Assembly: GCA_949287225.1 (NCBI GenBank)
Contig: CASEFP010000060.1
Span: 1 to 64,000, forward strand
DNA length: 64,000 nucleotides
Direction of reading: 5' to 3'
Source: an uncultured Lentisphaeria bacterium
GTDB lineage: Bacteria; Verrucomicrobiota; Lentisphaeria; Victivallales; UBA1829
The notes below the pieces were generated by a model, which ran no database searches, was not told the origin of the DNA, and worked only from the letters and a program-made list of their open reading frames with translations. Positions within the stretch are counted from its first letter, which is position 1, and each line of letters begins with the position of its first letter. Both the position numbers and the translations under genes were made by a program. Shown in pieces: positions 30,651 through 32,818 of the stretch.

Positions 30651-31511
30651 TCAGGGGTTCATCAGGGCGAATGCGTATTGTTCCGCAAGGGCCCGTACAG
30701 ATTTCAGGGCACGTTCGCGCGCCTCGAAACTCTCGTAAAAGACAAAAAGCGTCGGGCCGCTTCCGCTGACCATGACGCGATTGTTTACCGTTTCCAGCTT
30801 CCGCTTGAGAATCGCCAGAAGCGGGAATTTTTCCAGCACGGCATATTCCAGATCGTTCCGCAGCAGCGGCACAGCGCGCGCGAAATCGGATTCCCGCAGT
30901 GCGGCAAGAAGTTCCGCAAGAGAGCGGGTGTCCGCATGCGCCGCCGCATGATTCCGATGACGGTAGCTCCACGCCGCGCTCACGGGAAAGAGGGGTGCCG
31001 CGATCAGGAGCGGCAGATGCGCCGGAATCTCCGAAACAGCTTCCAGACGCTCTCCGACGCCGCGTCCGACCGCGGGAACACAGCGCAGGAAAAAGGGCAC
31101 GTCCGCCCCGATTTTCACGGCGAGCGCATCCAGCTCCTCCGGTGCCAGCGCGTTGAAACGGCGCTGCATCAGCTTCAGAACCGCCGCCGCATCGGAACTG
31201 CCTCCGCCCAGACCGGCCGCAACCGGAATGCGTTTGACGAGAGTGATCTCCACGCCGGAAGCAATCCCGGCACGTTCCCGGTAGAGACCGGCGGCCTTCC
31301 AGCAGAGATTCGACTCATCGGACGGAAGTGCGGCAGTGGAACACGTCATGCGGATTTCCCCGTGCTCCGGAAAGCGCAGCGATACCGTGTCCGTAATGCC
31401 AGCAAGCGGATGGAACAGCGTTTCAATCTCGTGATAGCCGTCCGGGAGCCGGGAGCAGACACGCAGAAAGAGATTGACCTTTCCGGGCGTCTCCAAAGTG
31501 AATGATTCCAT
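30651..31511 (-). CDS. ispE: 4-diphosphocytidyl-2-C-methyl-D-erythritol kinase
   Basis: A 286-residue GHMP kinase of the MEP isoprenoid pathway. The substrate site begins with PGKVNLFLRV. The ATP-binding glycine loop is PVAAGLGGGSSDAAA. GADVPFFLRC is the third family motif and a GSGPTLFVF element lies near the C-terminus. Length is normal. The ribosome site is weak (AAAGG at a long distance). It probably forms an operon with ppiB. The tandem palindromic repeat region lies immediately upstream. Confidence 0.95.
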   Translation of the reverse strand: MESFTLETPGKVNLFLRVCSRLPDGYHEIETLFHPLAGITDTVSLRFPEHGEIRMTCSTAALPSDESNLCWKAAGLYRERAGIASGVEITLVKRIPVAAGLGGGSSDAAAVLKLMQRRFNALAPEELDALAVKIGADVPFFLRCVPAVGRGVGERLEAVSEIPAHLPLLIAAPLFPVSAAWSYRHRNHAAAHADTRSLAELLAALRESDFARAVPLLRNDLEYAVLEKFPLLAILKRKLETVNNRVMVSGSGPTLFVFYESFEARERALKSVRALAEQYAFALMNP

Positions 31512-31546
31512 AATGCCGTGCCGATTGCCTTTAAAAAAATTTCACA

Positions 31547-31810
31547 ATGCGATGCTTTGCATCGCAGAAAGTGCTTCGTGCAGGACTCTCAGTCCTGCCG
31601 CGATCCAGCTGCGCAAGCTGGTCGCCGCAGGCGAAATCCCCGATCCCCGGTGCTCGGCACCGGGGAAGTTCATTAAAAATCTAAATCCATCATGCGATGC
31701 TCCGCATCGCAGAAAGTGCTTCGTGCGCTCCTTTCAGTCCCGGTGCGGTCCAGCTGCGCAGGCTGACCGCCGCAGGCGAAATCCCCGATCCCCGGTGCCC
31801 TGCACCGGGA
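31547..31810. repeat. Two tandem copies of a multi-hairpin palindromic repeat
   Basis: Two ~120-base copies (31547-31674 and 31692-31810) fill the gap between ispE and the oxidoreductase gene. Copy 1 folds into four hairpins: GCGATGC-ttt-GCATCGC (31549-31565), CAGGACT-ctc-AGTCCTG (31581-31597), CCAGCT-gcgca-AGCTGG (31605-31621) and CCCCGGTGC-tcg-GCACCGGGG (31645-31665). Copy 2 repeats the first (31694-31710), third (~31748-31770) and fourth (31791-31809), while the second has decayed. In the third hairpin the outer pair changes from A-T to G-C between copies, a compensatory change that supports a folded structure. GAAATCCCCGATCCCCGGTGC (first 20 bases) is shared. It could be a REP/BIME-like element or a structured RNA. 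Confidence 0.8.
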
Positions 31811-31816
31811 TGGTGA

Positions 31817-32818
31817 TTATTTCCGGAAGCGGTAGAGATCGTATTTGCGGTTGTAGGCGTCGATCTCCTCGGTGATCGCGACCGCAAGCTCCAGTGCGCG
31901 CAGTCCCTGCGCACCGGTCACGCGCGGCTGAACGATCATCGGACCTTCCTTGGTCTTCCGTACCGCCTGTACGAAGTCGTTGATCTCGGCGGCAAGCGCA
32001 TTCTTCTCGCAGAGATTGACATGCTTGCTGGCGACGCCGAGAAAACTTTTCCGGATGATTTTCCCGGTGCTCTTGGCGTAATCCATCGAGATGTAGGAGT
32101 CGGTCTGGAAGACGCGGAACTTCCGCATGGGCTCGGTGCTGACGCGGCTGGCCGTCACATTGGCGACGGTGCCGTTCTTGAACTTGATGCGGACGTTCGC
32201 AATGTCCTCGGTCTTGCTCATGACCGGCATTCCGACGGCATCGAAGCGCTCCACATCGCTGCCGACCATCGTCAGCACGAGATCCAGATCGTGGATCATC
32301 AGGTCCAGCACGACGCTGACCTCCGTCCCGCGCCGATGCAGTCCGGGGCGCGGCGGCGGATATTTCGCCAGGCGGTGCGCCTCGATGAACAGCGTGTTGG
32401 AACGGTTTTTCTCGAGAAAATCCATCGCGGCATTGAAGCGCTCGACATGTCCGACGCCGAACACGAGATTGCGCATTTCGGCTTCCCGGACCATCCTGCG
32501 CGCCTCCTCGACGGTCGCCGCAATCGGTTTTTCCATCAGGATGTGCCTGCCCATTTCAATCAGAGGCATTGCGGTCTCATAGTGGCTGGTCGCGGGAACA
32601 GCGACGGTCAGCGCGTCGCATTGCTCCGCCAGCGCGGTGACGGTGTCGAATGCGGGGACGCCGTACTCTTTCCCGACATCCGCAGCGGCTCCCGGTGAAA
32701 CGTCATAGACGCCGACCAGCTCAACGTCCGGATTGGCCTTGTAAAGTCTCGTGTGATGGTGTCCCAGAACGCCGACGCCGACCACGCCGACCCTGATCTT
32801 GTCTTTTTTTCCGAACAT
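31817..32818 (-). CDS. Gfo/Idh/MocA-family oxidoreductase
   Basis: A 333-residue NAD(P)-dependent sugar dehydrogenase. The N-terminal Rossmann motif is VGVVGVGVLGHHH. EKPIA carries the usual catalytic-region lysine, and GHVERFN is near residue 125. The GHVERFN and EAHR features recall members near lipid A genes, such as the UDP-GlcNAc 3-dehydrogenase GnnA; that specificity is only a guess. GGAGG precedes the start. It lies 23 bases after the KDPG aldolase gene, so the two are probably cotranscribed. Confidence 0.85.
   Translation of the reverse strand: MFGKKDKIRVGVVGVGVLGHHHTRLYKANPDVELVGVYDVSPGAAADVGKEYGVPAFDTVTALAEQCDALTVAVPATSHYETAMPLIEMGRHILMEKPIAATVEEARRMVREAEMRNLVFGVGHVERFNAAMDFLEKNRSNTLFIEAHRLAKYPPPRPGLHRRGTEVSVVLDLMIHDLDLVLTMVGSDVERFDAVGMPVMSKTEDIANVRIKFKNGTVANVTASRVSTEPMRKFRVFQTDSYISMDYAKSTGKIIRKSFLGVASKHVNLCEKNALAAEINDFVQAVRKTKEGPMIVQPRVTGAQGLRALELAVAITEEIDAYNRKYDLYRFRK

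Follow-up and report, generated by a model that had tools for sequence, protein, structure and literature searches.

A tandem pair of repeats, very probably non-autonomous PATE-like elements of the IS200/IS605 family, in an uncultured Victivallales bacterium

Insertion sequences of the IS200/IS605 family, such as IS608 and ISDra2, share with the repeats described here subterminal hairpins, a guide 5' of the hairpin foot, insertion 3' of a short motif and, in the autonomous relatives of the repeats, a Y1 HUH transposase (PMC7290912, PMC6006769). Three further groups of known repeats are similar in part: 1) The PATEs of Haloquadratum walsbyi, which have no transposase, carry near-terminal palindromes related to IS605-type transposons, lack both terminal inverted repeats and target duplications, and are mobile and present in many copies although intact transposases are scarce (PMC3119063). 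2) The REP/BIME/REPIN sequences with their RAYT transposases (TnpAREP), which are likewise short, palindromic and dispersed, with a Y1-type logic (PMC3116915, PMC8266576). 3) The IS605B stem loops 3' of lipoprotein genes in Borrelia, in which IS605 hairpin ends lie at the 3' end of a gene and overlap the end of its coding sequence (PMC2775950). The repeats studied here lie in a 64,000-nt stretch of DNA (the window) from the genome of an uncultured Lentisphaeria bacterium (G000), and are very probably two tandem copies of a non-autonomous, PATE-like element of the IS200/IS605 family.

The two copies in the window

A sequence-only reading of the window had pointed to two adjacent repeat copies, each with several hairpins, and both points were borne out. 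The two direct copies (31538–31664 and 31683–31809) are 127 nt each, 84% identical and 145 bp apart, and each unit has five hairpins, i.e. a left hairpin, three core hairpins and a right hairpin, with the first core hairpin, GCAGGACT-CTC-AGTCCTGC (31580–31598), lost in copy 2 (31725–31743), as that reading had noticed. The fold of the region had a z-score of -6.3 relative to shuffled sequences, with 0 of 100 shuffles as good. No third copy turned up in a profile search of the window, in agreement with the claim that the element is the only one of its kind there. The full insertion, at about 31527–31818, is slightly wider than had been proposed. The features assigned, with their basis in parentheses, are as follows:

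30651–31511, minus strand: ispE-like gene flanking the array, start facing it (name from reading of the translation)
31522–31526, plus strand: probable left target (CL) of copy 1, CGATT (position fits TTNATT of other copies; G pairs with guide C31543)
31542–31544, plus strand: left guide of copy 1, TCA (placed like the guides counted elsewhere, on the 5' side of the left hairpin)
31548–31566, plus strand: left subterminal hairpin of copy 1, GCGATGC-TTT-GCATCGC (fold; conserved in all class A copies)
31580–31598, plus strand: core hairpin 1 of copy 1 (fold; stem varies between repeat classes, still paired)
31602–31623, plus strand: core hairpin 2 of copy 1, including A31603-T31622 (sequence, fold, covariation)
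31623–31633, plus strand: core hairpin 3 of copy 1, CGCC-GCA-GGCG (covariation, CG to TA and CG to GC)
31642–31644, plus strand: right guide of copy 1, GAT (guide/CR pairing counts, G with TTCATT)
31645–31665, plus strand: right subterminal hairpin of copy 1, CCCCGGTGC-TCG-GCACCGGGG (repeat alignment, fold; placed as in the autonomous IS)
31669–31674, plus strand: right cleavage site (CR) of copy 1, TTCATT, also the left target of copy 2
31693–31711, plus strand: left subterminal hairpin of copy 2 (sequence, fold)
31725–31743, plus strand: decayed core hairpin 1 of copy 2 (sequence)
31747–31778, plus strand: core hairpins 2 and 3 of copy 2, including G31748-C31767 (sequence, fold)
31787–31809, plus strand: right guide GAT and right hairpin of copy 2, CCCGGTGC-CCT-GCACCGGG (sequence, repeat alignment)
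31814–31819, plus strand: right end of copy 2, TGATT (overlaps the stop codon TTA, 31817–31819, of the next gene)
31817–32818, minus strand: Gfo/Idh-like gene flanking the array, stop codon facing it (name from reading of the translation)

Both copies in the window are old: in copy 2 the right tip has departed from TTYATT, and divergence has blurred the junctions at the locus. The reported change of an A-T to a G-C pair was found to be exactly compensatory (A31603-T31622 in copy 1, G31748-C31767 in copy 2). This lone change between two copies proves little by itself; the selection for structure that had been proposed from it is, on sequence grounds, strongly indicated by the covariation seen in other copies and in other genera.

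Copies, ends and target sites

A genome search for the shared unit, which had been suggested as a check, gave at least 46 matches in G000. Two congeners, G001 and G003, have about 30 copies each and a third, G002, has six, while in other genera mostly the core part alone was detected. Thus other copies and covariation, whose absence was named in advance as evidence against the structural reading, are both present. The copies indicate an element size of about 145–150 bp, and they are near-identical inside each genome but different between genomes, suggesting recent bursts. Using a strict core pattern to scan GTDB genomes, the matches listed came from Victivallales MAGs (Lentisphaerota) only, and a search of the literature for repeats in Victivallales gave no specific report. 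Many near-identical G000 copies are no more than about 20 bp from the end of a contig (e.g. C7:17-123, C50:6-112 and C101:4-110), and the element probably breaks the G000 assembly there. One IMG/VR viral contig (L259) contains a copy of the core.

The left end of the element consists, in order, of the target TTNATT, a linker of 15–17 nt, the guide TNAT, three to four bases and a hairpin, and the right end of the guide NAT, a hairpin, three to five bases and TTYATT. A hairpin is thus present near each end, with compensatory changes between subfamilies, and guide and hairpin have the same orientation at both ends (direct, not inverted). This guide/target layout is as described for IS608 and ISDra2 (PMC6006769, PMC7290912).

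At the left end, the variable target base and the guide base form a Watson-Crick pair in 48 of 60 distinct insertions (T-A 23, G-C 18 and C-G 7), compared with a permutation mean of 21 (p < 5e-5, a value which overstates independence on the guide side since copies of a subfamily share their guide). At the right end, pairing between guide and tip is seen in 72 of 96 cases (A with TTTATT in 40, G with TTCATT in 32; p < 5e-5), a count that includes a few stray non-element matches among the 96 and largely represents two inherited states, since guide and tip both belong to the element; ten G.T combinations were also seen. In G003, TTCATT occurs with TTGATACC and TTTATT with TTAATACC, and in G000 TTGATT occurs with TTCATACA. 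The two G003 subfamilies (e.g. L063 and L064) differ jointly in the target (TTCATTT vs TTTATT), in a one-base spacing and in the guide (TTGATACC vs TTAATACC). With three target bases, three matching guide bases, related genomes and sequenced empty sites, these elements provide a natural test of guide-based target choice in the IS200/IS605 family.

These ends suggest a mechanism in which i) a Y1 HUH transposase supplied in trans would recognise the end hairpins as single-stranded DNA, ii) the guide 5' of each hairpin would pair with the target (TTNATT) on the left or with the element's own right tip (TTYATT), and iii) insertion would take place 3' of the target with no conventional target duplication. 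The right tip being a target itself, later insertions may build head-to-tail arrays. The arrays are always head to tail, and copy 2 in the window starts directly after the TTCATT of copy 1, presumably because a new element inserts into the right tip of the old one.

Empty sites were found among the congeners, in which the joined flanks of G003 copies are continuous DNA. Locus L063 of G003 reads GCGCGGTTCATTTC-element-TTGAG and its empty counterpart in G001 (L143) reads GCGCGGTTCATTTCTTGAG, with TTCATT as host sequence; L064 of G003 is empty in both G001 and G000 (L137/L138), which have GTTTATTTCACG with host TTTATT; and L100 of G000 is empty in G001 and G003 (L267/L268), with host CTTTCTTATGATTTGGC (TATGATT). 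Clean empty sites are available only at these three loci; they show TTNATT to be host sequence and insertion to take place on the 3' side of this short motif, with no target duplication. Between left target and right tip, C changes to T at L063 and G to C at L100, so that simple target duplication is excluded at those two loci; in T/T cases a 6-bp duplication would give the same appearance. The window locus is empty in G001, G003 and G002, the two flanking genes being separated in G001 and G003 by a short spacer ending in GATTATT, which shows that the array was inserted there, although the exact junction is no longer readable.

The presence of mosaic copies, and of tandem arrays shared at some orthologous loci (L057/L088, L071/L080), might suggest that recombination or gene conversion among dispersed repeats, and not transposition, produces the copies. 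However, the pairing of guide with target and the clean empty sites at loci that are unrelated require site-specific insertion, and we give this origin, largely refuted by the empty sites, almost no credence. Transposition of an IS200/IS605-type element is the preferred reading.

Within the taxonomic family of the bacterium, autonomous relatives were found that combine the same ends with a Y1 TnpA, but none was found in its own genome. G020 contains two near-identical autonomous elements of about 560 bp encoding a TnpA of 149 aa, with TTTATTCTTTTGGGTTTAATACC-hairpin at the left end (target TTTATT, then CTTTTGGGTTTAATACC) and CCGATACC-hairpin-TAGTTCATT at the right end (hairpin, TAG, TTCATT). 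In G024, a TnpA reading frame is directly followed by GATACTGGGCATGCTTGCATCGCGGTAGTTCATT, the right end of the window-type element, and G049 has a right end as in the TnpA elements of G020 and G024. The G020 protein matches Pfam Y1_Tnp (2.7e-33), retains by sequence the HVH motif and the YxxxQ tyrosine motif, and clearly resembles the crystallised transposase of ISHp608 (2a6m, 53 bits), with a stronger resemblance to two other crystallised Y1 transposases (2xm3 and 2fyx). More distant IS200 TnpA proteins (about 29% identical), encoded in G002, G012 and related genomes, have ends not linked to the window-type element. No match to the G020-type TnpA was found in G000, G001 or G003, suggesting that the mobilising gene is missing from these assemblies, lost, or too diverged. 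The same paradox, mobility with intact transposases scarce, is reported for the Haloquadratum PATEs (PMC3119063).

It had been proposed that the repeats are a REP/BIME-like mobile element, to be sought near a RAYT-type transposase. A mobile palindromic element was confirmed, and its high copy number, palindromes, intergenic position and tandem arrangement would fit a REP/BIME or REPIN array spread by RAYT. However, the GTRG tag is lacking, the hairpin foot reading TNATACC or NATACC, the hairpins are in direct order instead of the inverted pair of a REPIN, and the ends fit IS200-type elements. Furthermore, a PF01797 search of G000 (94% complete MAG, 254 contigs) detected neither RAYT nor any other Y1 gene, and the partners found elsewhere are IS200-type TnpA proteins. 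With the genome search and the end anatomy both against it, a RAYT/REP origin was rejected as highly improbable.

The three-hairpin core

Of 120 Victivallales genomes, 40 gave matches to a model of the core (64 nt; HP1-NCGNGRTCCAGC..GCTGGTCG-HP3-CGAAAT), often in dozens of copies and in some genomes more than 70. Most of these copies lack IS200 ends, and genomes with no Y1 gene at all have the core too. The stem sequences differ yet stay paired, hairpins 2 and 3 co-varying across genera. The three inner hairpins are a module separate from the IS ends, apparently captured by an IS200-derived element and likewise by a similar element in G039 (L043/L256). This exposes a three-hairpin module dispersed across Victivallales and unnamed in the libraries searched.

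Two other settings of the core were observed. A class B repeat of the same genus (L213:3158, L199, L200 and L232), about 200 bp long with five or six hairpins (ACGGAAGAATGC..GCATTCTTCTCGGGGTCAAGGG...), has the core alone in common with the window element. In G118 (L346-L350), which belongs to a different family of the order, the core is embedded in long palindrome mosaics, often behind A-rich stretches.

The co-variation of hairpins 2 and 3, the occurrence of the core without IS ends in many genomes and the position of many elements directly after stop codons would also suit an element that is primarily a structured RNA or 3' end element (a terminator or stabiliser) kept by selection, with spread being secondary. 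Against this, near-identical copies have arisen in recent bursts, presence is polymorphic at orthologous loci, and copies decay. In addition, Rfam covariance models gave no match for the window region, the sole hit being P15 at chance level (21 bits of 70), and a known RNA family was rejected on this basis. We consider such an origin of the whole element very unlikely, and a role of the core at the 3' end or as RNA is only a lead. The repeats may nevertheless act in processing or termination, or as an RNA, as the sequence-only reading had also proposed. The wobble pairs in the core (G.T vs A.C) show a strand bias that gives no clear indication of one functional strand.

Stop-codon replacement and known systems

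On the opposite strand the right tip TTYATT is AATRAA, supplying TGA or TAA on the minus strand, so that insertion at a stop codon would swap one stop for another and leave the protein intact. Among 48 arrays whose tip is intact, 18 have the TRA of the tip as the stop of the minus-strand gene next to them, compared with 13 of 170 other non-coding TTYATT sites (OR 7.2, p 2e-6), whereas 1 of 49 arrays, against 181 of 351 background TTYATT sites, is inside coding sequence; these counts are approximate, the gene calls coming from a simple script. For example, at L063 the TAA of the element takes the place of the host stop TGA, the gene at L100 is one codon shorter and ends at the element's TGA, and in G045 an element end supplies the TGA stop of the preceding gene. 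The scarcity of insertions in coding sequence is explained by selection against broken genes; the enrichment at stops goes beyond that at other intergenic sites and points to in-frame replacement of the stop as a niche in which insertions are tolerated. A dense, inactive-looking repeat can thereby spread in gene-dense DNA by swapping stops, with genes unbroken. As a speculation that we think rather doubtful, stops may be a safe harbour for which guide and tip are tuned, the stop being replaced in frame, while the captured order-wide core would work as an RNA or bind a protein, so that the insertion is of use, or at least harmless, as a 3' UTR.

Compared with the known systems, the window element differs from i) the Haloquadratum PATEs (PMC3119063) in being bacterial (Victivallales), in carrying a separate three-hairpin core and in providing a stop codon from its right tip, ii) IS608 and ISDra2 in that the window copies encode no protein and that the third base of the target TTNATT varies naturally with a matching guide, iii) REP/BIME/REPIN sequences (PMC3116915, PMC8266576) in its direct hairpin pair and in the lack of a GTRG tag and of RAYT, and iv) the few single IS605B stem loops of Borrelia (PMC2775950) in that the Victivallales elements are complete, two-ended and swap the stop codon. 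Its novelty is that of a PATE-like derivative which combines natural guide/target covariation, stop-codon replacement and a captured core found across the order.
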